Shown here piece by piece: positions 4,272-35,369 of a DNA stretch of 64,000 bases. The notes under the pieces are model-generated. The model did not search any database. It worked only from the letters and a program-made list of their open reading frames with translations, and had not been told where the DNA came from. The stretch is from Halarcobacter ebronensis. GTDB lineage: Bacteria > Campylobacterota > Campylobacteria > Campylobacterales > Arcobacteraceae. The first letter of the stretch is position 1; each line of letters starts with the position of its first letter. The translations under genes and the position numbers were made by a program. The stretch is from contig NZ_CP053836.1 in the NCBI RefSeq assembly GCF_013201825.1, forward strand, positions 2,914,001 to 2,978,000. Reading direction: 5' to 3'.

Positions 4272-4280
4272 TTTTTAAAA

Positions 4281-4315
4281 GAGGGCTTTCTTTTAGAAAG
4301 TCCCCTTGCTTTTTA
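4281..4315. terminator. bidirectional terminator between the second flagellin and the glycan island
   Basis: Hairpin GGGCTTTC (4283-4290), loop TTTTA, then GAAAGTCCC with one bulged base, followed by a T-rich run on the plus strand and an A/T-rich run on the minus strand. It overlaps the last codons of the Maf gene and probably ends both converging transcripts. Confidence 0.6.
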
Positions 4316-6362
4316 AGATATCTTCTAAATATTCAATATACTGTTTCGTCAATCTTATTACTTGATTCAACCAAACTTTTTTTACTTCCATTATTTTTTT
4401 TTGTTCATTTTTAATTTTTTTATTGTTAAAACAGTAACAAATATAAATATTCGCTAGTTTTGAATACTCTTCATACACAAAATTTAACAATGTAGCATAT
4501 CCTATTTTTTTTATATTTTGATTTGTAGCCTCTAACAATTGTTTTAATTGATTAAAATTGTCTATTTTATGTTTTTTTTCATTTTCTAAACATTTTATCA
4601 ATTCTGAAAAATACTCTATCTCCTTTTTGACTATTGCTAACTCTCCTACTGTCAATTTGTTTTCACTAATTTTATTTAAATTTTCTAATAATATTTGTTT
4701 TATATCTTTCTTATTTATTTTATTAAAAGTGTTTATTTCTATATCTTCTACTTTTTTTGCTTCTGAACCTTGTAAATATGCACCATGATTTGAAAGGTTA
4801 ATTACTTTTTGATTTTCTTTCTTAAAATCTTCAAAAGTTTGCATATATGCAAATATTGAACTAATAAATATTCTTGTAGTTAAGACTTCCTTTTCAAAAT
4901 TTCCTGTTACAGGAATTAAATCATCTTTATATGAAGTTTTAGTTGTCTCTAAAGATTTAGTTATATTAATATTTTGGACCTCTTTTTTTACTAAATCTTT
5001 ATAATTTGAGAAATGCGTTTCCCCTGTTTTTTTATTTATTGCTAAATCTGTTCCTAACATATAAAGCTCTTTTACTCCCATATCTAATAGTAAAGAAACA
5101 GTTAATTCTCCTACACTATACCCTTTATATATTGTTGAATTACTTTTAAAAGAGTTATTTATCTCAAAATAAAAGACATTTTCTGGATTAATAGTATTGG
5201 TCAGTTGTTTAGGCGTTATAATAGAAAATAAAAAAATTGTATTTTGTAAATTTTCTATATTTTCTTTAGTAAAATGATGCTTTTCTAATTCCCAAAAACT
5301 TGGTTCAACCGAACTTATAATATCTGGAGTGATTCCATTTTGTAAAAGTAGTTTATAAGAAGCTCCAATTGCAACAATTATAAACCTATCTTGATATTTT
5401 TTAAGCCACAGTATATTATCTTGTAAAGATGGACCTGCTGCAACAAAAAGAACAGGATTACTATTTGAAAAATCAAATCCTTTTTCCTTTTTATTTGCAA
5501 CTAATATATTATCACTATTAACCCTTTGTGATGTCAATTTTACAAGGTTATATAAACTTCTAGTATAATCAAAAGTCATGGGATTTATTTTGTACATTGT
5601 AGAAATAATCTTATTCATCATTTCCGACACATTATAATTTGTAGTGGAATATTTTATATAATAATTTTCATCTGAATTATCTTCCAAAAATAGTTGATAT
5701 TTTTTGATGAAACTATTTTCATCGTCCATAATTGAAAATCTAATCTTAGTTCCATTGAAAACATCAGCATAATTGATTACAAAAAGAGAAAGTCTAAAAA
5801 TTTCTAAATTATTTTCACATATAAAATAACTCTTTGCCATTATTTTTCTATGAATATCAATAAGGTGACGTCCAAGTAAAGTCCCTACAAAAACAAATTT
5901 TTCAATTCTATTAAAAACTTTTTCCTTTGTAGTATCATCTTTTAATATATCAGTAAACTCTTTCATATCATTATAAATCATTGGTTCTAACTCTTCATAT
6001 GATTCATAATCAAAATTCACTTCTTGATAACTATTATTTAAGTCATAAGGTTCTCGTAAGAGGGAAGAAAAATAACTTTTTTTATCTAAATTTACACTAT
6101 TAAATAACCTTCGATTAAATTGTTTTGGCTTTCTTTTGTAAAGATACTCTTTTGTATGAGAATCATAAATATCAAATTCATTAGCTTCTTGGATAAACTC
6201 CAGGAAGTATCTCTCTTTATATACTTCAGTTTCTATAGCTTGAGAAAGTCCATTTACTCTACAGTATAGTTCATTATCAAATTTTTTTAATAACTCTAAA
6301 TTTGAAAAAAATGTTTTTACTAATATTTCCTGTAATTGCTCTTGGGCTTTTTCTAATGACAT
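4293..6362 (-). CDS. Maf-type motility accessory factor (DUF115), putative flagellin glycosyltransferase
   Basis: Protein of 689 residues. The central third carries the DUF115/MptE-like domain: NPVLFVAAGPSLQDN and IVAIGASYKLLLQNGITPD near residues 300-345, then LYMLGTDLAI. Maf proteins of Campylobacter, Helicobacter and Aeromonas are needed for flagellin glycosylation with nonulosonic acids and are thought to transfer the CMP-activated sugar to Ser/Thr of flagellin in the cytoplasm. The C-terminal 150 residues look like a helical coiled-coil region. AAGGA lies five bases before the ATG. It is the last gene of the island and abuts the flagellins, which supports the assignment. A nine-A tract lies near the 3' end. 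Confidence 0.85.
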   Translation of the reverse strand: MSLEKAQEQLQEILVKTFFSNLELLKKFDNELYCRVNGLSQAIETEVYKERYFLEFIQEANEFDIYDSHTKEYLYKRKPKQFNRRLFNSVNLDKKSYFSSLLREPYDLNNSYQEVNFDYESYEELEPMIYNDMKEFTDILKDDTTKEKVFNRIEKFVFVGTLLGRHLIDIHRKIMAKSYFICENNLEIFRLSLFVINYADVFNGTKIRFSIMDDENSFIKKYQLFLEDNSDENYYIKYSTTNYNVSEMMNKIISTMYKINPMTFDYTRSLYNLVKLTSQRVNSDNILVANKKEKGFDFSNSNPVLFVAAGPSLQDNILWLKKYQDRFIIVAIGASYKLLLQNGITPDIISSVEPSFWELEKHHFTKENIENLQNTIFLFSIITPKQLTNTINPENVFYFEINNSFKSNSTIYKGYSVGELTVSLLLDMGVKELYMLGTDLAINKKTGETHFSNYKDLVKKEVQNINITKSLETTKTSYKDDLIPVTGNFEKEVLTTRIFISSIFAYMQTFEDFKKENQKVINLSNHGAYLQGSEAKKVEDIEINTFNKINKKDIKQILLENLNKISENKLTVGELAIVKKEIEYFSELIKCLENEKKHKIDNFNQLKQLLEATNQNIKKIGYATLLNFVYEEYSKLANIYICYCFNNKKIKNEQKKIMEVKKVWLNQVIRLTKQYIEYLEDILKSKGTF

Positions 6363-18401: not shown

Positions 18402-19592
18402 TTAATTCCCATAACAACTTTTACAACAAGAAGGGATATCTCCTTCTAAATGTTTTTTTCTAAAGTCTTGGTATTCTTTACCATTCCACAAACTTTTAAA
18501 TTCACTTATATCTCCAAAATTAATAACATCAGGATCAGCTATCATGCAACATGGAACGACTTTAGAATCAGAACTAATGTACGGTCTATTAAAAACCCAA
18601 GGGCATAAATTCTCTAAAGAGTCTGTTTTATATTTATTTGCTTGCTCCCAAACACTAATATCAATATCATATTTTTTTGACAATTCTAAAAGTTTTACTT
18701 CCTCTTCTTCACTTAATCCCTTTGATTGCAACTTCTCATTTTTCTCATGCCACTCTTCTCTTCCCCAATCATTTAATGTAATTGAAAAACTTATTCTTTT
18801 AAAATTCATCTGTTTTGCTAATTCAACAAAATCAAATAACTGATGCCTATTATAATTTTGTATTAATGCCCACATTCTTGTATATGGTCTATTTTTTTCA
18901 TTGGCATAATTATTTAACAAAGTAAAATTACTTACTACTTTTTCAAAATTTGAATTAACTCTAATTTTTTCATACACTTCTTTAGTTGCTCCGTCAAAAG
19001 AACATTGGACTTCACCTATCTCCGCATCAATTAGTTTCTTATAATTTTCATTTTTATGTAATAAAGAACCGTTTATTGAAGTTCTTGTCCATATATGTTG
19101 AGAAGAAAGATATTCAACCATTTTGAAATAATCTTTATGAAGAAGAGGTTCTCCCATTCCATGTAATTTTATTTCTATAAAATTTTGATTAGAATCTATA
19201 AATTCTTTAAACTGTTCAAAAGTCATATCTTCAGCTCTTTTTCCTTTTTCCCAAGATGAAACATGACACATGATACATTTAAAATTACATCTACTATTAG
19301 GTTCTAAATCCATTATTGTAGGGAAAAAGTTTCTAACTGGTAAATATTCTTCTTCTTTTGAGACTATATAGTTTTTTAGTCGATGAGGATATTTTACAAA
19401 TCCCTTGTAATAAGTCATTTTATGAGAAAACTCATCAACACTAGGTGCTAAAAGTTTATTTTCTCCCCTCTTTAATTTTTCTATTTTATATCTTAAAAGA
19501 TTAGGGTTTTTAACAAAATACTTCGCTTCTGCTAATTTTTCATTAAATATTTTTCCATATAACTTGTAAAACTCTTTATCAGATAATAACAT
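18402..19592 (-). CDS. radical SAM protein with SPASM-like C-terminus
   Basis: Protein of 396 residues from ATG 19592, chosen over a TTG at 19598 because AGGA lies six bases before it. The radical SAM cluster motif CNFKCIMC spans Cys102, Cys106 and Cys109. HGMGEPLLHKDY is the GGE-like SAM-binding strand. The C-terminal part holds further cysteines (NLCPW, VVPCCM, CCKSCYGN) consistent with an auxiliary iron-sulfur cluster in a SPASM or twitch domain. About 90 N-terminal residues precede the barrel. Reaction unknown; location suggests modification of a sugar nucleotide or a glycan-linked group. Confidence 0.8.
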   Translation of the reverse strand: MLLSDKEFYKLYGKIFNEKLAEAKYFVKNPNLLRYKIEKLKRGENKLLAPSVDEFSHKMTYYKGFVKYPHRLKNYIVSKEEEYLPVRNFFPTIMDLEPNSRCNFKCIMCHVSSWEKGKRAEDMTFEQFKEFIDSNQNFIEIKLHGMGEPLLHKDYFKMVEYLSSQHIWTRTSINGSLLHKNENYKKLIDAEIGEVQCSFDGATKEVYEKIRVNSNFEKVVSNFTLLNNYANEKNRPYTRMWALIQNYNRHQLFDFVELAKQMNFKRISFSITLNDWGREEWHEKNEKLQSKGLSEEEEVKLLELSKKYDIDISVWEQANKYKTDSLENLCPWVFNRPYISSDSKVVPCCMIADPDVINFGDISEFKSLWNGKEYQDFRKKHLEGDIPSCCKSCYGN

Positions 19593-19604
19593 TTCCAATC
19601 CTAC

Positions 19605-22177: not shown

Positions 22178-23067
22178 TTAAACCCTTTTCTAAATATATA
22201 ATTTGCAATATTTGTATTATAATTAATTGGTCCATTCTCTTTACAAATAATTTCAAAAGATTTTTCTTCTAAAATCTCTTTTACCTTTACATGTTCCGAA
22301 AAATTCAAATCTAATTCTACGCATATTTCTTTAACACTTTCTAATGCTTTATTCGCGCCTAATATAACATTTAATTCATTATTATCTACATCAATTTTTA
22401 ATTTTGTAGGAGAAGGGATATTATAATTTTTTATCAAGTCATCCAACGACATAGTAAAAGTATCAATAACTTTTGTTGATAAATCAGGATTTTCAAGAAG
22501 ATAAGATTTATTTCCAATTGAATGTAATGCGTCCCCTTTAGAAATATCTTTTAAATAAAACTTTTCTAATGCCGTTTCATCATGAACAGCAAAGGGAACA
22601 GGAGTACATAATTTTTCGACATTATTTAAAAAAATATTTTCATATAAAAGAGAAAGGTTTAAAATCTCTGGTTCAAAAGCAAAACTTCTTATTGATTTTT
22701 TAGCTGCATATATTGAATAATTTCCTACATTTGCACCAATATCATAAAAAATATCATTTTCTGAAAATCTATCAATCCATTCAATTGTCATAGGTTCTTC
22801 AGTTAGCAAAGTCTTAGCTCTCCATAATAATCTACCATGTCCTGTTCTAAATAAAATACTATCATTAGAAGATATAGGGATTTTTATTTTTGGTTCTAAA
22901 ATTTGTATAAACTCATTACTAAATCGATTTACACCATTTAATTTAAATAGTCCAATTAATACTTTAGAAATGCCTCTTAAAAATTTGATATAAAAATTTG
23001 GTTCAAAACCTTGTTTTTGCTGATCCCTTGGCAAGGGAAACAAAATTTTTCTAATTGATTCCTTCAA
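22159..23067 (-). CDS. FkbM-family methyltransferase (TTG start)
   Basis: Protein of 302 residues. DIFYDIGANVGNYSIYAAKK near residues 108-127 is the SAM-binding motif of FkbM enzymes, and PTKLKIDVDNNELNVILGA matches the FkbM signature region. It lacks the N-terminal Rossmann-like domain of the other FkbM protein at 12035. Translation probably begins at TTG 23067, with AAAGGA seven bases before it; the TTG overlaps the stop codon of the preceding gene. The likely role is O-methylation of a glycan sugar. Confidence 0.75.
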   Translation of the reverse strand: MKESIRKILFPLPRDQQKQGFEPNFYIKFLRGISKVLIGLFKLNGVNRFSNEFIQILEPKIKIPISSNDSILFRTGHGRLLWRAKTLLTEEPMTIEWIDRFSENDIFYDIGANVGNYSIYAAKKSIRSFAFEPEILNLSLLYENIFLNNVEKLCTPVPFAVHDETALEKFYLKDISKGDALHSIGNKSYLLENPDLSTKVIDTFTMSLDDLIKNYNIPSPTKLKIDVDNNELNVILGANKALESVKEICVELDLNFSEHVKVKEILEEKSFEIICKENGPINYNTNIANYIFRKGFKCKKQL

Positions 23068-23861
23068 AAATTATTCCTTTTCCTTTTTAATACCCATTTT
23101 TTTAGAACACTCTTAGTATTATTTGGAGTAAATCCATATAATACTTTAGCTTTTTCTATTGATATATTAAAAAAATTATATTTTTCATTATTTTCTAAAA
23201 TTGTTGATTTCGATTTAATCTCTTTTTTTAAATAAAGAACTATATCTTTCAAACTCATTTCTTGTTCAAGTGCAAGATTTAATAACTCATATTGTTTTTC
23301 AAATCTGTATCCAATTATAAAATTAAAAATTGATTCTACATCAATAAAATTATTACTTAACTTCTTTGCATTATAAAGATAAATTGTCTCATCATTATTA
23401 AGTTTTAACAAAAACCTATTTAGGAATCCATTACTACTATCTTTTGTAAGAATCATTGGTAATCTCAATATCAAACATTTTAAAGAAGATTCTTCTAGTA
23501 TTTTTTCTCCAAATAATTTAGAGGTAGAATATAAATTTAGATTTTTATAACTTGATTTTTCGCTAACATTTAACTTATTTTGATTACCATATATACTCAT
23601 TGCAGAAAAGAAAATAAACTTTTTAATCCCATTTTTATAACAATACTCAATTATTGTTCTTAAATATTCTATATTTGAATCTATTAAATCATTATAGTTA
23701 TTTCCAGTTTTTGCAGCAAGATGAATAAAACACTTAGCATTTATATTTTTTTTCAAATCAGCTTTTTTATATGTAATATCTGAATTCTTTAAAAAAAGAG
23801 GAAGTAGTTCATTACCAACATTTCCATTTATTCCAGATATTAAATAATCAACAGATTCCAT
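23064..23861 (-). CDS. NAD-dependent epimerase/dehydratase-like SDR protein
   Basis: Extended short-chain dehydrogenase of 265 residues. ISGINGNVGNELL (8-20) is the GxxGxxG nucleotide-binding turn, FIHLAAKTG follows, and the catalytic set is SAMSIYG (Ser) with YSTSK (Tyr and Lys). It is shorter than typical NDP-sugar epimerases (about 310-350) and closer in length to RmlD-like reductases. It shares one base with the radical SAM gene upstream (TAATG) and leads into the FkbM gene, so it belongs to the radical SAM/transketolase block. The sugar is not identifiable. Confidence 0.75.
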   Translation of the reverse strand: MESVDYLISGINGNVGNELLPLFLKNSDITYKKADLKKNINAKCFIHLAAKTGNNYNDLIDSNIEYLRTIIEYCYKNGIKKFIFFSAMSIYGNQNKLNVSEKSSYKNLNLYSTSKLFGEKILEESSLKCLILRLPMILTKDSSNGFLNRFLLKLNNDETIYLYNAKKLSNNFIDVESIFNFIIGYRFEKQYELLNLALEQEMSLKDIVLYLKKEIKSKSTILENNEKYNFFNISIEKAKVLYGFTPNNTKSVLKKWVLKRKRNNF

Positions 23862-24931
23862 TAAACAAATCCTAAATGATCTAAATCTACATTTAAATAA
23901 TCTAAAATCATTTTATTCTTTTCATTTGCTATACAATGATGACTGCAATCACATTTTGGATTTATCTTAAAAAATTTTTCTTTATCATTAAACCAAAATT
24001 CTTTAAAACTTTTTTCTTTAATATTTCCAACTAATCCATTATCCAAGTTATATGCCTTATCTTGACATGAATAAATATTTAAATCTGCACCTATTATTGG
24101 TAATATTTGGATATATGGACACCAATCATAATCTTTTTCAAATTTTTCTTCAAGTAGATGATAAGTGTCATAAACTTCAAAACTTTCATCTTCAAGTTCG
24201 GTTTTTACTTTTTTTATTTGTTTTTTTACTTCATCATATATTGGAGCATGATATTCATTATTTTCTTTTCCTAGATTACTTACTATACATGGTGACATTT
24301 TTATACTATCTGCACCAGTAGCTTTTATTTTTTTTGCCATCTCATAAATGTGATTAAAATTTTTATTATCAATAATAAAACTAACCCCTAAAGCACATTT
24401 ACCACCAAGAGATTTAAACTCTTTCATATTATTTAGTATATTTGTAAACTCTGTTTTTTTTGTTTTTCTATACTTTTTATAACTTAAGTCATCCCAGCCA
24501 TCCATTGAAACTCTAATCCATTCACCATATTTTGAAAAAATTTCTGCAACTTCTCCTTTTAACTTAGATCCATTAGTTAATGATGCAAATTTAATATTAG
24601 ACTTTGAAAGCTTCTTAACTGTATCAAGAAAATATTTATAAACAAATGGTTCTCCACCTCCACTAAAAGTTATTGATTTTACGTCCATCTCAATGCAATC
24701 ATCAAGTATTTCCATCATCCTATCTTTTGGAATAAAATCCCTAACTACCATATCTTGTCCCAATTGCACCTCATCAAATCTGTAAGAGCAATACCAACAA
24801 CTATGATTACATACATTTGTAGGTTTAATTCTTATATGTATTGGAGAGCTTATTTCCTCCACATCTTTTGGTAAAGAATCTAACTTCTCTTGAAAGTGAA
24901 ATACTTTAAATTTAGAATATTTTGATGCCAT
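23861..24931 (-). CDS. radical SAM protein with auxiliary-cluster C-terminus
   Basis: Protein of 356 residues. The cluster motif CNHSCWYC holds Cys41, Cys45 and Cys48, followed by ITFSGGGEPFVYKYF. The C-terminal region has DWCPYIQILP, IYSCQDK and CDCSHHC, which could ligate a second cluster. The order and the closing residues (NVDLDHLGF) parallel the radical SAM protein at 26908, so the two are probably paralogs. AAGGA lies eight bases before the ATG. It may carry out a radical step on the sugar built by the neighbouring transketolase, but nothing in the sequence shows the substrate. Confidence 0.8.
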   Translation of the reverse strand: MASKYSKFKVFHFQEKLDSLPKDVEEISSPIHIRIKPTNVCNHSCWYCSYRFDEVQLGQDMVVRDFIPKDRMMEILDDCIEMDVKSITFSGGGEPFVYKYFLDTVKKLSKSNIKFASLTNGSKLKGEVAEIFSKYGEWIRVSMDGWDDLSYKKYRKTKKTEFTNILNNMKEFKSLGGKCALGVSFIIDNKNFNHIYEMAKKIKATGADSIKMSPCIVSNLGKENNEYHAPIYDEVKKQIKKVKTELEDESFEVYDTYHLLEEKFEKDYDWCPYIQILPIIGADLNIYSCQDKAYNLDNGLVGNIKEKSFKEFWFNDKEKFFKINPKCDCSHHCIANEKNKMILDYLNVDLDHLGFV

Positions 24932-24942
24932 TATTATTTTCC

Positions 24943-25605
24943 TTACTCAAAGTATATGAATTCATAATCACCAGTATACCCATACTCATCATATAACCAT
25001 ACCCATTCATCAGGTCTAAAAAAGCTCTCACAAGTTAGAGCCCAGCATTCTAAATTAAAAAGCTCTGCATCATTTCTATAACCTTCTACTAAAACATACT
25101 TATTCTTTCCAACACGCTCAATCTCTTGTATCGCTTGTTTAAACTCATAGATTTTTAAATTATGTAAAGTATTTATAGAAATTACTAGATCAAATTCATT
25201 ATCAACAAATGAATATTTATCTTCTGCTCTATAATTATATAAAAAATTTTTTACTTCTTCTTTTGCATTTTCTATAGAATAGTTTGAAACATCAAATCCA
25301 ACAATATTAGAATTTGGTAAAAGCTTTTTAAACTCATAAAGTAGAAATCCTTTTCCACATCCTACATCAAGTATTTTACATCCATCGTGTAAATTATATT
25401 CTTCAATTAATTCTTTTGCAATAATATTCCATCTTCCATCATACTTATATCCACCATAACCATATTTTCTATCTCCATCCCAAAAGTCATATTCAAACTC
25501 TTTTGCCTTTTTCATACATAAAATCTTTTCCCTATTCATTCTTTCAAGGTAATCTCTTTGTGTACTTTTATGAAGTTTAGTTATTATATTTAGTAATTTC
25601 CCCAT
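24943..25605 (-). CDS. class I SAM-dependent methyltransferase
   Basis: Protein of 220 residues with CKILDVGCGKGFLLYEFKK near residue 75 (motif I), NIVGFDVSNYSIENAKEE next, and DNEFDLVISINTLHNLK as the motif IV region. The family is the broad Methyltransf_25/11 group. It lies between the radical SAM gene at 23861 and the two transketolase pieces, 11 bases from each, and is probably co-transcribed with them. C- or O-methylation of the same intermediate is the natural guess. AAAGG lies seven bases before the ATG. Confidence 0.75.
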   Translation of the reverse strand: MGKLLNIITKLHKSTQRDYLERMNREKILCMKKAKEFEYDFWDGDRKYGYGGYKYDGRWNIIAKELIEEYNLHDGCKILDVGCGKGFLLYEFKKLLPNSNIVGFDVSNYSIENAKEEVKNFLYNYRAEDKYSFVDNEFDLVISINTLHNLKIYEFKQAIQEIERVGKNKYVLVEGYRNDAELFNLECWALTCESFFRPDEWVWLYDEYGYTGDYEFIYFE

Positions 25606-25615
25606 ATCTTAACCT

Positions 25616-26098
25616 TTAAAGAGTTCTTACATAAACTGGACCATCATAAGTAAACATCTTTTTTATATCTTCTACTAAAGATGACTCATCAGGATCTAAT
25701 ATTAAAAGATTTTTAAAAAGTGACATTAAGTAAACATCATCTTTATCCATACAATGACTCCTACCTAAAGCTTTAAAATAATTATCAGCACCTACTCCAA
25801 TCATTTTTATATTTAGGTTATGTTCACATACATCATATCTAATCTGTTCAAATGAACGCATAACTAAAAAAGGTATTTGTGAATATACAATAGGTTTCAT
25901 TCCAACCATTTCCATTCCCGCTGCAATACCAATTGTCGCTTGTTCTGTTATTCCTGTATTAAAAGTACGATTAGCATGATTATTAAAGAAATCATCAAGT
26001 ACTGCAAACCCCATATCTCCAGCTAAAAGAACCATTTTTTTATCTTTTTTAAAATATTTATATATCTCTTTCATTACATCTTTTTTAGAAATTGCCAT
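25616..26098 (-). CDS. transketolase-like small subunit, pyrimidine domain only
   Basis: Protein of 160 residues from ATG 26098, chosen because GAGGAA stands just upstream and the gene then follows the partner's stop by one base; an ATG at 26167 would overlap the partner heavily. It matches the pyrimidine-binding domain of transketolases: Glu52 in FNTGITEQATIGIAAG is the catalytic thiamine-activating glutamate. The usual C-terminal domain of about 120 residues is absent, and the next gene begins 11 bases on. Split transketolase small subunits are normally about 300 residues, so this one is minimal. Confidence 0.8.
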   Translation of the reverse strand: MAISKKDVMKEIYKYFKKDKKMVLLAGDMGFAVLDDFFNNHANRTFNTGITEQATIGIAAGMEMVGMKPIVYSQIPFLVMRSFEQIRYDVCEHNLNIKMIGVGADNYFKALGRSHCMDKDDVYLMSLFKNLLILDPDESSLVEDIKKMFTYDGPVYVRTL

Positions 26099-26099
26099 A

Positions 26100-26897
26100 T
26101 TATAATTCCTCTTCTTTAAAGATATAACCATCTTCTGTTGGGCATCTATAGTGATACTTTGTATCATGTTGAATCATTTTTAAGCCATTTCCCTTTAAAG
26201 TGTGTGCTACTACTATAGAGATATTTTCATTTTTTCCCGTATAAAACTTTTTGTAAACATCTCTTAATTCTTCTTCACTATGCCCATCAATTTCATAAAA
26301 AGATTCAGGAGAAAAAGCATTTAAAATTTTTGCTAAATGTTTATTCTCAACTGAAACATCTTTTACATAATCCATTGCTTGTAATTCATTTGCATCTACA
26401 ATAACAAGTAAGTTATTCAACTTAAACCTTATAGCGAGAAGTAATGCCTCATAATTACTACCCTCTTGCATCTCTCCATCTCCAACAATACATATAACTT
26501 TATTTTGTTTATTCTCTATTTTAAAAGATTTTGCCATCCCAACTGCAATTGGAAGTCCGTGACCTAAAGAACCAGTAGATGCTTCAATCATATAGTTATT
26601 ATTTTGAACTAAACAACCTTTTAAACTTGATTTTTCCGTATTAAAATAATTTAGTTCATAGTCAGGTATAAATCCTAAATGATTTAAAATAATATAATAA
26701 GTATAAGCGCCATGACCTTTTGAAAATATAAGTCTATCTCTCGATTCATTCCTCGGATCATTTTTATCAAACTTTAAAAAAGATTCAAAAAGAACTTTAA
26801 GTATTTCAACTGTAGATAAAGATGAACCTAAATGTCCGGCATTTGTATCACATGAAAACTTTATTGTTTTTTGTCGTAATTCTTTTGAAGATAACAT
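26100..26897 (-). CDS. transketolase-like large subunit, thiamine-diphosphate-binding domain
   Basis: Protein of 265 residues. GHLGSSLS (21-28) corresponds to the GHPG substrate-phosphate region of transketolases, KGHGAYTYY (60-68) follows, and the thiamine diphosphate motif starts GDGEMQEG at 139-146 and ends with Asn170. With the 160-residue partner it should form a two-chain enzyme that moves a two-carbon ketol unit between sugars. A housekeeping transketolase is not expected inside a glycan island, so a role in building a special sugar is likely. AAGG lies eight bases before the ATG. Confidence 0.85.
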   Translation of the reverse strand: MLSSKELRQKTIKFSCDTNAGHLGSSLSTVEILKVLFESFLKFDKNDPRNESRDRLIFSKGHGAYTYYIILNHLGFIPDYELNYFNTEKSSLKGCLVQNNNYMIEASTGSLGHGLPIAVGMAKSFKIENKQNKVICIVGDGEMQEGSNYEALLLAIRFKLNNLLVIVDANELQAMDYVKDVSVENKHLAKILNAFSPESFYEIDGHSEEELRDVYKKFYTGKNENISIVVAHTLKGNGLKMIQHDTKYHYRCPTEDGYIFKEEEL

Positions 26898-26907
26898 AGT
26901 TAATACC

Positions 26908-27966
26908 TTAAATAAAATTAATATGCTCTATATCTGGGTGTTTAATATTCCAGAGATAGTTATTTATTTGATGATGTCTACAATTTGGTTGACACATATT
27001 TTTTTCAATACAATTATTAATATAATTTAATGCATTTTTTTTCTCTTTTGAATTCCAGATCTCTTTAAAACTATTTTCAAATATATTACCATGTATAGTT
27101 TTCTTATCATGCTGGTGTGAAAAACATGTATAAACATCCCCTAACTCATCAATAAAAACAATAAACTCCAAACCATAACATTTATCATATACCCTTTTTG
27201 ATGAAAGGTTTTGTGTACTTCTAATAACAAAAGAAAAATTATCATCACTAATTTTTTTAGATTCATCTTCTAGCATTTTTAAAAACTTTTCATCTAAAAA
27301 ATTTGAATCTGTACTATATTCATTGTGTTCATGATTATAAAAATGTTTTACACTAAAATAATCAACTCCCAAGCTTTTTAACCTATTCGCATGTTCTATT
27401 ATATAATCTTTATTTTCAGGAATTAAAACACATTGACTACCTATAGTAATCTCACTTTTTAATCTCTGCTTAGTCTCTTTTAACCTTTTAATATTCTCTA
27501 AAACTTTTTCAAAATCAGAAGAATCAGTTTGATGTACTAAAGCATAATTTTCAGCACTTCCTGCATTAAATGAGAACCGTATCCATGTTAAATTTTTAGC
27601 TAAAATCTCAAAATGTTTCTCTTTTAGAATAGCTCCATTTGTACTTAATGCTACGTCTATACCTAAACTTTTTGCCAGCTGTATCGCTTCAAAGGTATCC
27701 ACATGTAAAGTTGGTTCACCATTACCAGCAAAAACTAAAGATTTTACTCCCATTTTAGCAAATTCACGTACAAGTTCTAACATTTTCCCTTTTTTAAATC
27801 TTCCTTCATGTCCTAAATAATTATAGTTACAAAAAAGGCATTTATGATTACATACTCCAGTAGGAGATATTTCAACATATATTGGTGCCGTTAAGTTACC
27901 ATCTAAAAATTGAGCTATCTCTTTTGGATGATAATTGATTTTATGTGAATCTAAAAAATTATCCAT
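26908..27966 (-). CDS. radical SAM protein with auxiliary-cluster C-terminus
   Basis: Protein of 352 residues. CNHKCLFC gives Cys39, Cys43 and Cys46, followed by LVFAGNGEPTLHVDTF. The C-terminal part has YDKCYGLEF, VYTCFSHQH and CIEKNMCQPNCRHH, suggesting an extra iron-sulfur cluster, and ends PDIEHINFI, close to the end of the radical SAM protein at 23861. It overlaps the radical SAM gene upstream by eight bases and precedes the transketolase pair by 10 bases. Such tight packing suggests that the products act in one pathway. The reaction is unknown. Confidence 0.8.
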   Translation of the reverse strand: MDNFLDSHKINYHPKEIAQFLDGNLTAPIYVEISPTGVCNHKCLFCNYNYLGHEGRFKKGKMLELVREFAKMGVKSLVFAGNGEPTLHVDTFEAIQLAKSLGIDVALSTNGAILKEKHFEILAKNLTWIRFSFNAGSAENYALVHQTDSSDFEKVLENIKRLKETKQRLKSEITIGSQCVLIPENKDYIIEHANRLKSLGVDYFSVKHFYNHEHNEYSTDSNFLDEKFLKMLEDESKKISDDNFSFVIRSTQNLSSKRVYDKCYGLEFIVFIDELGDVYTCFSHQHDKKTIHGNIFENSFKEIWNSKEKKNALNYINNCIEKNMCQPNCRHHQINNYLWNIKHPDIEHINFI

Positions 27967-28948
27967 CTATATACTCTTCATCTTTTTCATAATTGTAAGA
28001 ACCTAAACCATAATTTTTATTAGTTTCTAGATATAATCTCTCTTTTTCAGTTAATTCTCTAATATTTTGAATATCAACTGAAGTGTGACCAAAAATCTGG
28101 TGTCTGTTCGTTTTCACTTTTATATCACATGGATTACAATGACCAAAAACATAACATGGTCTATGAATCTGTTCTATATCAAAATTTGGGTCAAGAATAT
28201 GCCCTATAGGTGTTCTATTCTCATAAAGGTCTGAATGACATCTAAATACATGCCCACTTGGTGCAATTATAAGTTCTGTTGTTTTACAATCACAATATTT
28301 TTCAACTTTTTGAGAAATTGCTTCTGGATACTTATAGGTTCCATGCCACTCTTTTCCATCAAAACCTAAATACTCTTTTACTCTAAAGTCAATTTTTTCT
28401 CTAAGGCACTTTTCTTTTACCTCTTCAATATGTTTTTGATTTTGAGGAACCATTACTGAATAAATCCCTATATAGAATCCTGCTTTATCAAATTTTTTTG
28501 CTTTTGCTATCAAGTCATCTATATCATTTTGCCCTGGATGATAACTAACTCTAATAGCTGCATATTTAGCTTCTCTTGTAAATTTTTTTGGGTCAATATT
28601 GTTTATAAACTCATCCACATCAAAAACCATATTTGTTAACAAATCAAGTTTTACATCATCATCAACACCATTTACAATATCAAAGAACTCTTTGTGAATG
28701 GTTGGTTCTCCTCCTTGTAAGGTTACAGGTAAATCTGTATTTAAAATCTTAAGTCTATTGATCGCTTTTGCCCAATCTTTTCCCGACATAGGTTTTCTTG
28801 AAACACTTTTTCTTGTTGAATTTTCTTCATTTAAATTTATGCAATAACTACAAGACAAATTACATCCTAAAGAGACAAAGGCTCCTATGTAATTATAATC
28901 TTTTGGTACTATAATTTTTTTTTGTTTTAACACTTTTTCTAATTTCAT
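27959..28948 (-). CDS. radical SAM protein
   Basis: Protein of 329 residues. CNLSCSYC contains Cys29, Cys33 and Cys36, and VTLQGGEPTIHKEF is the SAM-binding GGE strand. Later cysteines (KYCDCKT, VFRCHSD, RPCYVFGHCNPCD) may bind an auxiliary cluster. It is clearly diverged from the paralogous pair at 23861 and 26908. A nine-A tract (28915-28923) falls within codons 9-12, so slippage would shift the frame almost from the start. It follows the GT9 gene by four bases. No strong ribosome site is visible. Confidence 0.8.
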   Translation of the reverse strand: MKLEKVLKQKKIIVPKDYNYIGAFVSLGCNLSCSYCINLNEENSTRKSVSRKPMSGKDWAKAINRLKILNTDLPVTLQGGEPTIHKEFFDIVNGVDDDVKLDLLTNMVFDVDEFINNIDPKKFTREAKYAAIRVSYHPGQNDIDDLIAKAKKFDKAGFYIGIYSVMVPQNQKHIEEVKEKCLREKIDFRVKEYLGFDGKEWHGTYKYPEAISQKVEKYCDCKTTELIIAPSGHVFRCHSDLYENRTPIGHILDPNFDIEQIHRPCYVFGHCNPCDIKVKTNRHQIFGHTSVDIQNIRELTEKERLYLETNKNYGLGSYNYEKDEEYIDG

Positions 28949-28952
28949 TTAT

Positions 28953-29855
28953 TTACTTATTTTTGAATAGCTTTTGAACACCATCAATAATATCATTGAT
29001 TTTAATATCTTTCATTTTATTAGTTTTTGATTCAATTACTATACTTTCCTTTGTGAAAAATATTTCAGAACTGGGTGTTGGTCCAAATAAACCAATAAGC
29101 TTTTTTTTCATAGCAAGAGCTAAATGTAAACCTAAGCTATCTTGTGAAATAATCATTTCACACGAATTAATCCACTCAAAATATTCCTCAAGACTATTTA
29201 AACCCTTTTGCCAAGAAATTGAATATCCTAAGTCTAATAATTTACATTCTAAATTTTTCCATTTTTTTTCTGACATAGCTTTTTCTGGCCATTTATTCCC
29301 AACCTTATAATTTAAACCAATCTCATTTATTGGTTTATTTTTGGGTTTATATCCTAGTGTATACTGTTGTTCTTTCCATTTAAGTCCTAGCATTTCAATA
29401 ATCGTTTTTTGCCAATAATCATGTCTATTACAATTAATCTCTTTTTGATTAATATAATCAATAAATTCTAAACCTTGTTCATACCCATCATAATTACCTG
29501 TATCACTATTAAAACGGAAACCATACTTATTCCACGCTTCAATTTTATCTCCTATTGCACACACTCCAGGAATTTTTTCTAAATTAATCATCAAATCAAA
29601 TTTTTCCATCAGAAGTTGAAAGGGAGTAAACTCATCCCAAACAATAACTCTATCAATATAAGGATTATTATTTAATAAAGGTTCTGCTTCTCTAGATACA
29701 AGCCAAGTCAAATGTGAATTCTTATATTTATCTTTTATTGCTTCAACTACAGGTGTAGTTCTTAAAACATCACCTAAACTAACTACCCTTCCAATTTCTG
29801 AATCTAATGTTTCAGAATATCCTAGTTTTATAAATAATATTTTTGTTTTTTTCAT
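28953..29855 (-). CDS. family 9 (heptosyltransferase-like) glycosyltransferase
   Basis: Protein of 300 residues. ILFIKLGYSETLDSE and SLGDVLRTTPVVEAIKDKY at the N-terminus, then SCEMIISQDSLGLHLALAMKKKLIGLFGPT in two adjacent blocks near residue 230-260, are the GT9 pattern seen in ADP-heptose:LPS heptosyltransferases. No heptose biosynthesis gene is nearby, so the donor may be another sugar, perhaps the product of the adjacent radical SAM/transketolase block. No good ribosome site precedes the ATG. Confidence 0.8.
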   Translation of the reverse strand: MKKTKILFIKLGYSETLDSEIGRVVSLGDVLRTTPVVEAIKDKYKNSHLTWLVSREAEPLLNNNPYIDRVIVWDEFTPFQLLMEKFDLMINLEKIPGVCAIGDKIEAWNKYGFRFNSDTGNYDGYEQGLEFIDYINQKEINCNRHDYWQKTIIEMLGLKWKEQQYTLGYKPKNKPINEIGLNYKVGNKWPEKAMSEKKWKNLECKLLDLGYSISWQKGLNSLEEYFEWINSCEMIISQDSLGLHLALAMKKKLIGLFGPTPSSEIFFTKESIVIESKTNKMKDIKINDIIDGVQKLFKNK

Positions 29856-29870: not shown

Positions 29871-31721
29871 CTATTTATTTATTGCATCAATAAATGACTC
29901 AAATGTTTTTACAGATAAACTAGTTTGTAATAACCTATTCTTATTTTCTTCTGATAATTTTTCTCTAATTACATTATTATCAATTAAATTTACTGCAAGG
30001 TTTATATAATCTTTTTTACTAAAAGCAAATATTCTTTCATACTTTTTATCCCATTCATTTCTAAATATTTCTTGCATAGCAGGATGCTCTTTTGGCAAAA
30101 GAATAACAGGGACTCCACCTTTTGAAATAAACTCATTTAATGATTCCCCAGAACTTTCAGGAAAAGTATTTAAATAAATATCTATAACTTTTATGTATAT
30201 TTTTGGATCTACAAAACCAATAAAAAAGAATCTACTCGACAAGCCTCTTTTTTCTACTTGTTTTTTTATATTTGTTGAATCTCCAGCTCCACATACCAAG
30301 TAAACAGTATTTAACCTTTTTTCCATTATCTCAAAAATTGTTTCAAGATATTCATTATTGTCAAGCTTAATTAATCTACCTATGCTACCTAAAACTATTA
30401 CATTTTTGGAGAAGCTATTTTTAATTCTTGCAATTTCTTTTTCCAAATTTTTATCATTATCATTATTATAATTAGATAATAAGTTAAATACATGAAATTT
30501 AAAATTATTAGGAGTACTTCCATGAGCTATTCGAATATCAATCCCTTCAACATCATAATAATCATTACTATTATGATACCAATAAATCTGTTTAGGTGCT
30601 GTTCTTGTTAAATAAAAAAACATATACTCAACTCTAGTATGTAAGCCTATAAGAATATCAATATTATCTTCTATTAAAATTTCTCTACTTTTTATACACT
30701 TTTCAAGTAAAGAGTAAGTTTCACTTTTATTATTAAATATTTTTTCATGCAAATTCACGTATTTTAGTCCAAGTTTTTCAAACTCTTTTATAAATACTAC
30801 ATCGCTTCCCCCCGATTCTGGAAAAGCTAAATCGTATAAAATAAATTCATATTTATCTTGTTTCTCTTTCATAAGAGATTCCATCAAATAATACAAAACT
30901 TTTACGGTAGAGTGTCTTATAATTCTTTGCATTACAAAAGCAACTTTTTTCTTTGAAGAATCTTTCACTTTCTTTTTATTTGGAGTAATTTTATATTTTG
31001 GGATAATATGATTTTTGATATATTTTTCTAGTGGTTTTTCAATCTCAACTTGAAAACGTTGATTAGCTTCATGTTTATTTCTATGTGTTCCTGCATTAAA
31101 ATAATGTAAAGGAGTATAGTATAACCAAAAAGCAACTTCTGTTTTTTGATAATTCAATGCATTTTGAAATAGGTGTTTTAACTCATTGTATGCAAATTGA
31201 GAAGCTTCATTATCATGATAAACTTGCAACGATAAATTCCATGCTTTATATAAACAATCAATTTGAATATTTTCATCTAAAATTAAAAATTTATTGTTAA
31301 AGATATACTCTAAAAAATAACCATATAGCTCTTTTACGCTCCCGCATAATATATTAAAAATAAAAAATATATCAATAAATAATTCTTTTGGCGTTTTTAA
31401 AAAAATCTCTACAAAAAATTTTTGTAGAAAATCTACATTTTCACTATTTTGCAAATAATCAATTGTGATAACAAAAGCGATATCATATGGGTATAAAGAG
31501 TTTAATAATTGATTTTTTAAAATATCCATAGTTTCGTTAAAGTCACTATTATGAAGATATGATACTTTATACTTTTTTAATAAAGAGACATCTTGAATCA
31601 ATGTCAAAACATAATCCCTATTTAGTCTGTTATTGTCTGAATAACTTGATGCTACATTTATAAAATCTTGTTGTATTAGATTTGAAAGTTGGGTTTGTAT
31701 TGGAAGTTGTTCATTATTCAT
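29871..31721 (-). CDS. large GT-B glycosyltransferase with helical N-terminal region
   Basis: Protein of 616 residues. Roughly the first 240 look all-helical without a recognised family. The rest is a GT-B enzyme: VAFVMQRIIRHSTVKVLYYL starts the first Rossmann domain, and VIVLGSIGRLIKLDNNEYLETI, FFIGFVDPKIYIKVIDIYL and ESSGESLNEFISKGGVPVIL form the nucleotide-sugar domain. It resembles large glycosyltransferases of bacterial surface glycans, and the size recalls protein-acceptor enzymes, but that is a guess. Its ATG overlaps the upstream stop (ATGA). Confidence 0.7.
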   Translation of the reverse strand: MNNEQLPIQTQLSNLIQQDFINVASSYSDNNRLNRDYVLTLIQDVSLLKKYKVSYLHNSDFNETMDILKNQLLNSLYPYDIAFVITIDYLQNSENVDFLQKFFVEIFLKTPKELFIDIFFIFNILCGSVKELYGYFLEYIFNNKFLILDENIQIDCLYKAWNLSLQVYHDNEASQFAYNELKHLFQNALNYQKTEVAFWLYYTPLHYFNAGTHRNKHEANQRFQVEIEKPLEKYIKNHIIPKYKITPNKKKVKDSSKKKVAFVMQRIIRHSTVKVLYYLMESLMKEKQDKYEFILYDLAFPESGGSDVVFIKEFEKLGLKYVNLHEKIFNNKSETYSLLEKCIKSREILIEDNIDILIGLHTRVEYMFFYLTRTAPKQIYWYHNSNDYYDVEGIDIRIAHGSTPNNFKFHVFNLLSNYNNDNDKNLEKEIARIKNSFSKNVIVLGSIGRLIKLDNNEYLETIFEIMEKRLNTVYLVCGAGDSTNIKKQVEKRGLSSRFFFIGFVDPKIYIKVIDIYLNTFPESSGESLNEFISKGGVPVILLPKEHPAMQEIFRNEWDKKYERIFAFSKKDYINLAVNLIDNNVIREKLSEENKNRLLQTSLSVKTFESFIDAINK

Positions 31722-32887
31722 ATATTTCTCTTTTGTATTAGTAAATCAATAAATTCTCTTACCGCACCATCTCCACCAGAATGAGTTAAATTTATTATAC
31801 TATACATTTCTTTAATCTCGTTTAATGAATTAGAAGGACAAGCTGCAATTCCTACATGTTCTAAAAGTTCCTTACAATTAATATCATCACCTATATATGC
31901 AACTTCATCAAGAGATATTCCCTCTTTTTCACAAATTTTCTTTGCTACTTTTAGTTTTCCTCCATGCTCCACACCTTGATATAAATAATCAACTTTTAAC
32001 TTTTTTGCTCTATTTTCAACTATTTTTGTTTTTTCACTCGTAATAAGTCCCGTTTTAATCCCAGCTTTTCTTAAAAGTTCAAAACCTTTTCCATCGTGTG
32101 TATTAAATTTTTTAAACTCTTCTCCATTCTCTCCATAATACATTCCTGCATCGGTTAATGTTCCATCAACATCGCTTAAAAAAAGTTTTATTTTTTTACT
32201 TATTTCTTTTTCTCTCTCTTTTAATATATGTTCTCTCATTAGATTTTCTGCAATCTGCCAATCTAAGGTTTCATCTATTTCAACAGAGGTATAATCTGCC
32301 ATAATATATAAATCAATCTCTCCTGAAAGCCTATTTTTACTCTCTAAAATATTTTTTACTCTATTTATATAAAAGGCTCCATTTTCTAAAAAATAACCTT
32401 CAAAATCTTGTCTTCTTGGTCTTTTTTTATAATCATAATTTAAAGACTCACCAGCTTTATTCCAAAAAAATCTTTTTTGATTTACAACAGTTAGAAGAGA
32501 ATCTTTTTTAGACTCTTCTAGTTGCTCTATTGCTTTATCAAAATCCTGAGATTGGGTCAGAGGAGAAGTTGCTTGAACAAGCAAAAATAGATCCTCATCA
32601 TTTTGTTTATGCTTTCTTAAAAATTCTAGCATTACATCTTCTGTAGAGGAAGTATCTCTAGCATTTACCTCATCTCTTTTATAGATAATACTTTTTTTAA
32701 ATTTAAACTCTTTTACTCTTTGTGCAATTTCATCACAATCAGTTGCTACATAAACTATATCAATATATTTTGACTCTTCAATAGCCTTTAGATTCCAATA
32801 AACCAAAGGTTTTCCACAAAACTCTTTTATATTTTTAAAAGGTATAGATTTACTTCCACATCTAACTGGTATAAAGGCTATATTCAT
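31718..32887 (-). CDS. CMP-nonulosonate synthetase fused to KdsC-like HAD phosphatase
   Basis: Protein of 389 residues with two enzymes in one chain, the arrangement of animal CMAS. Residues 1-225 are a CMP-sialate synthetase domain: IPVRCGSKSIPFKNIKEF is the CTP-binding loop and VQATSPLTQSQDF follows. Residues 232-389 are a HAD phosphatase of the KdsC type, with the DxDGT nucleophile motif at 239-243 and IGDDINCKELLEHVG near the end. The fusion suggests that the precursor arrives as a 9-phosphate, is dephosphorylated and then CMP-activated. AAAGGA lies six bases before the ATG, which overlaps the preceding stop codon. Confidence 0.85.
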   Translation of the reverse strand: MNIAFIPVRCGSKSIPFKNIKEFCGKPLVYWNLKAIEESKYIDIVYVATDCDEIAQRVKEFKFKKSIIYKRDEVNARDTSSTEDVMLEFLRKHKQNDEDLFLLVQATSPLTQSQDFDKAIEQLEESKKDSLLTVVNQKRFFWNKAGESLNYDYKKRPRRQDFEGYFLENGAFYINRVKNILESKNRLSGEIDLYIMADYTSVEIDETLDWQIAENLMREHILKEREKEISKKIKLFLSDVDGTLTDAGMYYGENGEEFKKFNTHDGKGFELLRKAGIKTGLITSEKTKIVENRAKKLKVDYLYQGVEHGGKLKVAKKICEKEGISLDEVAYIGDDINCKELLEHVGIAACPSNSLNEIKEMYSIINLTHSGGDGAVREFIDLLIQKRNI

Positions 32888-33735
32888 TAATTTTCCTTTG
32901 TAAAACTTGCAATTATTGTATCTGTTGCATTTAATGTTGCCAATTGAGACTCATAGGCATTTGTAAGCTCTTTTGAATCTAAAAAATTTCCCCATTTTTC
33001 ATGTCCACCAGGGGCATTTTTACTTAGCCAATATAGATGATTTGATAGGGGATATCTTTGTATATGTTTTATAAACTCAACTTTTAATCCTGCTTTCTTT
33101 GCCAATAAAGATAGAGTGTATTGTGTATACAAATATAGGTGGCAACTCCAATAGGTAAAATGGGAAAAAGCTTCACTTTCATAAATAGTTAGTAAAGCAT
33201 CATTTGCATTTGGAACTTCTATTATCAATCTCCCTTTATCATTTAACATAGATTTTAGTTTTTCTAAAATTTCTATTGGTTCTTTTATATGTTCTATCAC
33301 ATGAAAAGATGTGATAATATCAAACTTTTTATTGCACTCATTAAGATTAGAAAACAGCTCTATTTTATCTTTTTCATAATACTCTTTAACTGCTTTTTCA
33401 AGCTCTACACCACAAACTTTAGTACAAACATTTTTTGCTAATTTTAAAAATCCACCATTACCACTACCAAAGTCTAAAAGCTTTTTATTTGTAATTGTAT
33501 TTTTTAAAGATTCAAACCTTCTGCTGTCATCCTCAAAAGTCTGTTTTCTCCACTTCTCAAAATCAAAACTACTATGCATCTTTGAGTTTTCATAAAAAGT
33601 GTCAGATATTTGATAGCTTTCAGATAGATAAACCAATCCACAATTACAACACTCATAAATATCTAAATCTTTATTATCCCTTACACTTCCACTTCTTTTC
33701 CTATGCTTATTACTACCACAAAGTTTACAATTCAT
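32887..33735 (-). CDS. SAM-dependent methyltransferase with N-terminal zinc ribbon
   Basis: Protein of 282 residues. Two cysteine pairs at the N-terminus (CKLCG at 3-7, CCNCG near 29-33) form a probable zinc ribbon. The methyltransferase domain (Methyltransf_23) has KLLDFGSGNGGFLKLA near residue 84 and ITSFHVIEHIKEPIEIL near 141. It sits inside the nonulosonic-acid module, between the NeuB-like gene and the CMP-synthetase fusion, so the nonulosonate or the sugar attached to it is a reasonable substrate. It starts four bases after the NeuB-like gene ends. Confidence 0.75.
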   Translation of the reverse strand: MNCKLCGSNKHRKRSGSVRDNKDLDIYECCNCGLVYLSESYQISDTFYENSKMHSSFDFEKWRKQTFEDDSRRFESLKNTITNKKLLDFGSGNGGFLKLAKNVCTKVCGVELEKAVKEYYEKDKIELFSNLNECNKKFDIITSFHVIEHIKEPIEILEKLKSMLNDKGRLIIEVPNANDALLTIYESEAFSHFTYWSCHLYLYTQYTLSLLAKKAGLKVEFIKHIQRYPLSNHLYWLSKNAPGGHEKWGNFLDSKELTNAYESQLATLNATDTIIASFTKEN

Positions 33736-33739
33736 CTAT

Positions 33740-34621
33740 TTACTTTCTATTTTTCAACTTATCTCTTTGAACCTGTTCAATTGGAAGAATCTCATCACTT
33801 TTATAATGTAAAGCTTCATAAGCTTCGTTGAGGCTTTTAACTAAAAGTTCTAGTTCATCTGGCTCTAAAGATGCCCCATGATCAGTCCCCTTCCAAGTTT
33901 TATCCTTTGTAAAATGACGCTCTATCCATCTAGCTCCTAATGCATAAGCAGCCACATCAAGTGCCACTCCTAAATGGTGTCCTGAAAAACCTATCTCATT
34001 TACTCTATTACCATACTCTTCATATAACCAGTTTATTTCCAAAAGTGAAACATCTTTTGCTGGAACTGGATAGCCTGAAGTACAAGAGTAGATTAGAAGT
34101 CTAGATTTTGCTTGGTCTGTCTCTTCAAAAAATCGAACTATCTCTTCAACCTCCTCTTTTCTAGTCATTCCAATTGAGAGTTGCACTTGTCCTTTAAACT
34201 CATCCCTTAAAACTCTTAGCATCTCAAAATTATTATTACAAGCAGATGGAACTTTTAAAAATAGAGGTTCAAATTCACACATCTGCTTAGCACTTGTAAC
34301 ATCCCAAACAGAAGTAGAGTAAACAACATCAATAGAGTCACAATACTCTTTTAGTTCTCTATGTTGCCCCTTTGTAAACTCTAAAAACTCCCTATGCTCT
34401 CCATAGGTATTCCCATATGAATTAGCAGGAACAGGATGAGGAGCATTGTATTGATCTTCAGTTAAAAGCTCTTTATTGTTTCTTTTCTGAAATTTAACAT
34501 ATTTTGCACCAGACTTTTTTGCTAAATCAATAAGCATTTTAGCTATACTCATATCACCTTTATGGTTACAACCTATCTCTGCAATTATCTTTGGCTCTTT
34601 ATAATCATAATTAAATCCCAT
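33740..34621 (-). CDS. NeuB-family nonulosonate synthase without SAF domain
   Basis: Protein of 293 residues from ATG 34621, preferred over 34648 because GGAAGGG lies six bases before it. The TIM barrel motifs of sialic acid synthases are clear: IIAEIGCNHKGDMSIAKMLI, AKYVKFQKR, KVPSACNNNFEML, YSCTSGYPVP, GFSGHHLGVAL and WIERHFTKDKTWKGTDHGAS. The enzyme condenses phosphoenolpyruvate with a mannose-type six-carbon sugar. Family members normally end with a SAF (antifreeze-like) domain of about 60 residues, which is absent here; the reading frame stops after the barrel. It overlaps the CBS-isomerase gene by 11 bases. Confidence 0.85.
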   Translation of the reverse strand: MGFNYDYKEPKIIAEIGCNHKGDMSIAKMLIDLAKKSGAKYVKFQKRNNKELLTEDQYNAPHPVPANSYGNTYGEHREFLEFTKGQHRELKEYCDSIDVVYSTSVWDVTSAKQMCEFEPLFLKVPSACNNNFEMLRVLRDEFKGQVQLSIGMTRKEEVEEIVRFFEETDQAKSRLLIYSCTSGYPVPAKDVSLLEINWLYEEYGNRVNEIGFSGHHLGVALDVAAYALGARWIERHFTKDKTWKGTDHGASLEPDELELLVKSLNEAYEALHYKSDEILPIEQVQRDKLKNRK

Positions 34622-35369
34622 TTTTAACCCTTCCATACTTATCTTCATATCTTATAATATCATCCTCTCCAAAATAGTCTCCTAACTGAACCTCTGCTAA
34701 AATTAAATTATCTTCTAAAGACGTATTTATAACTTTGTGTTTACACCCTTTTGGAATATAGACATATCTTCCTTGTTCTGCTTTTAATGTAGAGTCTTCC
34801 AGTATTATTTCACCTTCACCTTTTATAACAATCCAGTGTTCTTCTCTCCTTTTATGTTTTTGCAAACTTAGTTCGCCTTTAGGGAAAAGTGTAATAATTT
34901 TACTTTGTACATGTTTTGCAAGAAGGGTACTTTTATAAAAACCCCAAGGTTTCTCATAAATTTCACTGTCAAGTTCATTATCATCAATTTGAGGTAAAGT
35001 ACTAATATTATATTCCATATCTTTTAATAACATTACATGAAACTGTTTTTTTGAAATAATATTTACTAATTTTTTTTCATTATCTAAAATAGGAACAAAG
35101 TTTATTTTCTCTAATTTAAAGTAATTAAATAACTTTAAAAAAGTATCCTTTTTATTTATAAAAATATATTCTTTTGAGTAAGAGATAGAATCTTCTAATC
35201 TTTTTTTGCCAGTGATTAGAGTTCTTCTTATATCACCTTCTGTGGTAATTCCCAAAACTTTTTTATCTTTGTCACAAATAACCAAAAAACCTTTTTTATT
35301 TTCATCTATTCTTTTTAATGCTTGTAAAAGAGAAGAGTTATCATAAACTATAAATTTTTCTAAATTCAA
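34611..35369 (-). CDS. CBS-domain pair fused to type II phosphomannose isomerase cupin (TTG start)
   Basis: Protein of 252 residues. Residues 1-120 are two CBS repeats (VLGITTEGDIRRTLI is the first core, LVNIISKKQFHVML the second). Residues 137-252 match the cupin isomerase domain of ManC-type enzymes: EKPWGFYKS, LSLQKHKRREEHWIV, YIPKGCKHKV and GEDDIIRYEDKYGR in order. The nucleotidyltransferase part of ManC is missing. It would interconvert fructose-6- and mannose-6-phosphate, with CBS repeats perhaps sensing a nucleotide. The start is TTG 35369, with AGGA seven bases upstream. First gene of the island. Confidence 0.8.
   Translation of the reverse strand: MNLEKFIVYDNSSLLQALKRIDENKKGFLVICDKDKKVLGITTEGDIRRTLITGKKRLEDSISYSKEYIFINKKDTFLKLFNYFKLEKINFVPILDNEKKLVNIISKKQFHVMLLKDMEYNISTLPQIDDNELDSEIYEKPWGFYKSTLLAKHVQSKIITLFPKGELSLQKHKRREEHWIVIKGEGEIILEDSTLKAEQGRYVYIPKGCKHKVINTSLEDNLILAEVQLGDYFGEDDIIRYEDKYGRVKNGI

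Follow-up and report, generated by a model that had tools for sequence, protein, structure and literature searches.

A split transketolase and radical SAM cassette in a flagellin glycosylation island of Halarcobacter ebronensis, and its possible role in C2 branching of a surface sugar

The window analysed here is a 64,000-nucleotide stretch of Halarcobacter ebronensis (NZ_CP053836.1), covering positions 2914001-2978000 of the closed 3.17-Mb genome. At 23064-28948 it contains seven packed genes, which a first-pass annotation had read as a sugar-building cassette of three radical S-adenosylmethionine (SAM) proteins, both halves of a split transketolase, a short-chain dehydrogenase/reductase (SDR) and a methyltransferase, with an adjacent GT9 glycosyltransferase. 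All seven open reading frames (ORFs) are present; they lie on the minus strand, spaced by -68 to +11 bp. Each of the three radical SAM proteins scored over the PF04055 cut-off and carries CX3CX2C in that domain, as does a fourth one in the same run (18402-19598). The SDR, methyltransferase and GT9 assignments were likewise confirmed. The genes are as follows, where ThDP is thiamine diphosphate:

27959..28948, minus strand: rSAM1, radical SAM protein rich in Cys towards its C-terminus; this gene defines its cassette sub-family (PF04055 2e-7)
26908..27966, minus strand: rSAM2, radical SAM/SPASM protein (PF04055 3e-22, PF13186 1e-8)
26100..26897, minus strand: TKN, the N-terminal transketolase half, which binds the diphosphate of ThDP (PF00456 1e-26)
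25616..26098, minus strand: TKpyr, pyrimidine-domain half of the split transketolase (PF02779 5e-12; the ORF opens at 26167, the start is likely at 26098)
24943..25605, minus strand: MT24943, class I SAM methyltransferase (PF13847 1e-19)
23861..24931, minus strand: rSAM3, radical SAM protein whose C-terminal cysteines are SPASM-like (PF04055 8e-22)
23064..23861, minus strand: SDR, NAD-dependent epimerase/dehydratase/reductase family (PF01370 9e-15)
28953..29855, minus strand: GT9, heptosyltransferase-family glycosyltransferase (PF01075 1e-9; heptosyltransferase I model 2.5e-15, under cut-off)

These genes belong to one uninterrupted run, 22 genes on the same strand between 35369 and 8451, in which the largest gap is ≤55 bp and many genes overlap. 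On one side of the run is recA (35745), in divergent orientation, and on the other are the genes for flagellin and Maf (3390-6362). Promoter- and terminator-like matches in the window were no commoner than in shuffled sequence, so the operon claim is based on spacing alone. An Rfam scan of the window gave no RNA family.

Linkage was counted in 300 related genomes, a gene being called near when it lay ≤5 kb from a split transketolase. The three radical SAM families were near one at 42 of 47 places: 8 of 10 for rSAM1 (a family present in 10 of the 300 genomes), 27 of 30 for rSAM2 and 7 of 7 for rSAM3, the last all within 3 kb. Four of the five unlinked places were truncated by contig ends. This co-occurrence, the first check that the earlier annotation had proposed, was far above chance (hypergeometric 6e-7, 2e-7 and 5e-21 for rSAM1, rSAM3 and rSAM2, with kinship and common island location ignored). 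Relatives of MT24943 had either a transketolase or an E1-like pair near them at 13 of 14 places, the remaining one being on a 3.5-kb contig. The order rSAM1-rSAM2-TKN-TKpyr-MT-rSAM3 is kept in genome G024; G146, G206 and G227 have it too, interrupted by one or two additional genes, and rSAM1-rSAM2-TKN-TKpyr also stand in this order in G250, G272 and G150. An SDR relative (48% identity) was found in L021, and GT9 relatives in L038, L040, L045 and L046. Kept gene order and co-location in other genera support the reading of the genes as one sugar-building unit, and this genomic comparison shows the cassette to be a genuine unit. The proposal that GT9 transfers its product gained some support: GT9 relatives occur in 4 of 10 other rSAM1 loci and, according to the presence table, in none of the other families' loci.

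The rSAM1 protein has a conserved CNLxCxYC motif and, towards its C-terminus, conserved CxC, CHSDLY and CxxxGhCNPCD. The predicted structure of rSAM2 (pLDDT 73.8) matched BlsE (Z 23.3, 3.6 Å over 295 residues), DesII (Z 21.6), SkfB and SuiB, and BlsE was also its best sequence match in the PDB. Its scores were far under the cut-offs of the BlsE and DesII families (TIGR04466, 39.4 of 400 bits; TIGR04426, 28.6 of 450 bits). Thus rSAM2 models as a BlsE/DesII/SkfB/SuiB-like SPASM enzyme. The sugar-acting BlsE and DesII and the peptide-acting SkfB and SuiB match about equally, their scores lying close together, so the fold search does not settle the substrate class.

The match to peptide maturases is one of several observations that would suit two or more separate pathways packed together, with the transketolase, methyltransferase and SDR making one residue and the radical SAM protein(s) acting on other residues, such as a nonulosonic acid, or on a polypeptide. 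Glycan islands recombine, rSAM2 is missing from the E1-like and CDP (cytidine diphosphate) loci described below, and a 12-kb contig (L020) has the transketolase, the methyltransferase and rSAM3 without rSAM1 or rSAM2. However, the transketolase adjoins rSAM3 at all seven places and rSAM1 at all uncut ones, and gene order is conserved across families. We therefore regard separate pathways as rather unlikely.

The expectation that both halves of a split transketolase are present held for PF00456 and PF02779, but the second half has no PF02780, making this a two-domain enzyme. This C-terminal domain was found neither in TKpyr nor in its two-domain relatives. TKpyr is 160 amino acids long from its likely start; the relatives share its end point and length, so the short form is no frameshift, and the two-domain form occurs in 15 other loci, two other phyla among them, and is therefore a family trait. 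The closest named match of TKN comes from an Arcobacteraceae metagenome-assembled genome (75% identity), and the window proteins score as transketolase, not E1. In a tree, the aligned two-domain enzymes, including Pseudoalteromonas and Lentisphaerota members, form one group (98/98), separate from the three-domain split enzymes (100/100) and the CDP-locus enzymes (97/95). The closest solved structure for both halves is the Carboxydothermus split transketolase (PDB 6yak/6yaj), whose second chain has 341 amino acids and keeps a TH...GEDGASH motif that is altered in the window enzyme. A full-length transketolase and a DXS-length relative are encoded elsewhere in the genome. In plasmid and phage collections, the split transketolases found were all distant (<60% identity), and four plasmid examples were read: L064 and L065, which are carbohydrate-cluster-like, and L066 and L067, which have catabolic-looking neighbourhoods. 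Two unlike transketolase N-halves, one of the two-domain type and another, lie together on the glycan contig L020 (6005-12156, genome G028).

Compared with canonical transketolase (EC 2.2.1.1), the window enzyme keeps the ThDP and catalytic residues. The equivalents of D155, N185 and E411 (the ThDP-binding GDG...N and the catalytic Glu) are invariant in the aligned enzymes, and TKpyr retains the catalytic Glu and H473. In contrast, R358, S385, H461, D469 and R520 (E. coli numbering), which we take to be the contacts to phosphate and acceptor hydroxyls in the canonical enzyme, are respectively K, A, G, L and absent. The missing C-terminal domain might indicate a degenerate or moonlighting transketolase, in which TKpyr has no activity, or a structural role alone, and the chemistry falls to the radical SAM enzymes. 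We consider this very improbable, as the spread of the two-domain form over so many loci and phyla and the invariance of its ThDP-catalytic residues wherever aligned are unlike decay.

The remaining features of the region that enter the argument are:

29871..35369, minus strand: conserved upstream flank, comprising a glycosyltransferase, a NeuA-HAD fusion, a methyltransferase, NeuB without a SAF domain and a CBS-cupin
18402..19598, minus strand: rSAM4, a fourth gene of the radical SAM/SPASM kind, which belongs to the run but lies outside 23064-28948 (PF04055 2e-16, PF13186 3e-10)
3390-4271, plus strand: flagellin (PF00669 3e-37)
4293-6362, minus strand: Maf glycosyltransferase (PF01973 2e-30, PF20157 8e-11)

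With flagellin, Maf and the nonulosonic-acid genes for NeuA-HAD and NeuB (31718-32887, 33740-34648) all present, the region is a flagellin glycosylation island, in which the flagellin is likely the target and Maf its transferase.

Comparison of islands showed the same flanks around different inner blocks. G024 retains recA, CBS-cupin, NeuB (82%), NeuA-HAD (72%), rSAM1 (88%), rSAM2 (91%), the methyltransferase (71%) and rSAM3 (72%), and its transketolase pair is of the three-domain type, from another clade, with 31/37% identity to the window halves. G043 retains CBS-cupin, NeuB (83%), a methyltransferase, NeuA-HAD, a glycosyltransferase, GLF and rSAM4. Its inner block consists of a GmhA-like gene, a 4,6-dehydratase-like gene, an SDR, a relative of the cassette methyltransferase (44%), E1-alpha, E1-beta, a second SDR, a Zn-dehydrogenase, an HldE-like gene and a nucleotidyltransferase. 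This is therefore a changeable cassette, whose common content is this methyltransferase and a ThDP enzyme; rSAM4, with a copy of 49% identity in the G043 island, is part of the shared flank and lies outside the cassette proper. A pyruvate-dehydrogenase-E1-alpha/beta-like pair adjoins the same methyltransferase family in three genomes (L055, L056, L057). From these gene neighbourhoods, the ThDP enzyme of the cassette is exchangeable.

Relatives of the transketolase were also found in other settings. Fourteen of the 15 other two-domain loci have an HldE-like gene and a nucleotidyltransferase, and ten have a GmhA-like SIS gene. L047 (G105) joins this setting with the radical SAM/methyltransferase one, since it holds SIS, SDR, rSAM2 (76%), the split transketolase, the methyltransferase (70%), rSAM3 (64%), HldE and a nucleotidyltransferase. 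Three Campylobacterota loci (L053:6889-12721, L028 and L054) have DdhA/DdhB/RfbH CDP-3,6-dideoxyhexose genes with a related split transketolase among them, bordered on one side by CDP-glucose 4,6-dehydratase and on the other by an SDR and RfbH; these loci are candidates for a yersiniose-like pathway without YerE. A Paenibacillus cellulosilyticus plasmid (L065:2043-3950) encodes an SDR fused to the transketolase N-half. Its neighbours are rfbG, a protein with a C-methyltransferase domain, the second half of the transketolase, an O-methyltransferase and a glycosyltransferase. On an Azospirillum argentinense plasmid (L064:376-8011), a split transketolase has a B12-binding radical SAM protein on one side and, on the other, a cobalamin-dependent protein and a methyltransferase, a further radical SAM/transketolase pairing outside Campylobacterota. 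Constant across contexts are a C2-transferring (two-carbon-transferring) ThDP enzyme, an SDR and genes for sugar activation; what varies is the ThDP family, either transketolase or E1-like.

The GmhA-like and HldE-like neighbours raise the possibility that the transketolase makes an unusual heptulose or octulose phosphate, which the GmhA-like isomerase and HldE-like kinase would convert to a nucleotide-activated heptose or octose, with the radical SAM enzymes modifying it later. The matches to GmhA (4e-35) and heptose-7-phosphate kinase (4e-63), both under cut-off, fit this scheme, as does a Lentisphaerota locus with no radical SAM genes in its stretch. But the same SIS/HldE set accompanies E1-like pairs, which are unable to feed an aldose-ketose isomerase, and the CDP loci and rSAM1 loci hold the transketolase without SIS/HldE nearby. 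The changed phosphate-site residues also speak against it, as does the presence of a complete transketolase and of HldE elsewhere in the genome. Since it leaves the E1-like swaps and the CDP loci unexplained, we think ketose-phosphate extension improbable.

The reading that we judge likeliest, at little better than an even chance, is that the cassette makes or finishes one flagellin-glycan residue and that its central reaction is the ThDP-dependent addition of a C2 branch to a keto-sugar. TKN and TKpyr would together transfer hydroxyacetyl (glycolaldehyde) from a donor, either a ketose or hydroxypyruvate, to the keto group of a sugar, probably of heptose type; no aldose phosphate would be extended. 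At least one of the radical SAM proteins may prepare or tailor the ring by oxidation, deoxygenation or epimerisation, the SDR would reduce the new ketone, MT24943 would methylate, and GT9 or a neighbouring glycosyltransferase would place the residue. Here we infer the branching chemistry, the donor, the acceptor, the order of the steps and the identity of the heptose. The preference stems from the linkage, the slot swap in G024, the E1-like pairs in L055-L057, the CDP-locus relatives, the SDR-TKN fusion by rfbG, and the changed phosphate-site against invariant ThDP residues. It also draws on Rif15, the two-subunit transketolase of rifamycin: in vitro, its ThDP adduct was shown to attack the carbon of a ketone that is not a sugar (PMC6002545), although there the substrate is a quinone and the outcome C-O bond formation. 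Of the earlier alternatives of a chain-extended, branched or deoxygenated sugar, the branched one is thus favoured by the ThDP enzyme swaps and CDP-dideoxyhexose loci, and chain extension of a phosphorylated sugar is made less likely by the phosphate-site changes.

Several points weigh against C2 branching. The cassette in the window has neither a 4,6-dehydratase nor any other enzyme that would obviously make a keto-sugar. The GmhA/HldE-like genes beside most two-domain relatives fit ketose phosphate synthesis equally well. L061 is the single true exception to the linkage, a radical SAM/SDR/HldE set without a transketolase, and its genome (G028) holds a two-domain transketolase on a different contig. 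Finally, H461, D469 and R520 are also lost in the two plasmid enzymes with catabolic-looking neighbourhoods (L066, L067). The loss therefore means 'not a standard sugar-phosphate transketolase', and its use as proof of ketone acceptors was dropped as non-specific. The window cassette also has no dedicated heptose-activation genes; HldE-family matches elsewhere in the genome, together with the GT9 relatives in rSAM1 loci, suggest that it may use heptose from a general supply.

Known systems provide partial parallels. YerE is a ThDP enzyme that adds a C2 branch to CDP-3,6-dideoxy-4-keto-D-glucose in the yersiniose pathway (PMC12247030), and relatives of the window transketolase occur in CDP loci of this pathway type. 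However, YerE is a decarboxylase-type flavoprotein that uses pyruvate, whereas the window enzyme is of the PF00456/PF02779 split transketolase family and its run has no CDP-glucose genes. AviB1/AviB2 (avilamycin) and Pau11/Pau12 (paulomycin) are two-subunit E1-like ThDP enzymes proposed for sugar C2 branching (PMC4425429). This class occupies the slot in L055-L057, but these enzymes are pyruvate-dehydrogenase-like, and the window has a transketolase in place of the E1-alpha/E1-beta architecture. For miharamycin and amipurimycin of Streptomyces, split transketolases have been proposed, without proof, to add hydroxyacetyl to a keto sugar, and the same review (PMC12247030) states that a sugar-branching transketolase with a ketone acceptor has yet to be characterised. 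The window pair shares with these, by description, a two-gene transketolase in a sugar-biosynthesis cluster; they differ in that the products are antibiotic nucleosides, while the window enzyme is without the C-terminal domain and lies in a flagellin island. No report linking radical SAM enzymes and transketolase with flagellin or O-antigen was found in the literature library searched.

More tentatively, and with less confidence than in the branching step itself, the cassette may represent an undescribed branch-building module for bacterial surface sugars. In such a module an exchangeable slot for ThDP C2 transfer (two-domain or three-domain transketolase, or E1-like pair) would work together with radical SAM enzymes and a methyltransferase of its own to give C2-branched heptose-type residues on flagellin, the minimal transketolase working without its C-terminal domain. 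If so, transketolase-family enzymes act in bacterial surface glycans as YerE does in yersiniose, and there are many candidate ketone-accepting transketolases outside Streptomyces. The neighbourhoods already contain natural exchanges, among two kinds of transketolase and an E1-like pair, for comparing the marks that C2 donors leave on the sugar, and the cassette also offers a transketolase without a C-terminal domain and several sugar-linked radical SAM families.

Some further features were seen. L061 (5051-9487) has two AAA-ATPase (ATPase_2) ORFs among its radical SAM/SDR genes. In the window, the NeuA-HAD fusion is accompanied by the NeuB without a SAF domain; the HAD end has Kdn-9-phosphatase as its best match (171.8 of 180 bits), and the product of the two is likely a Kdn-like nonulosonic acid, judging from this match. 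The head of the run (34611-35369) encodes a CBS domain fused to a cupin of the mannose-6-phosphate-isomerase type.

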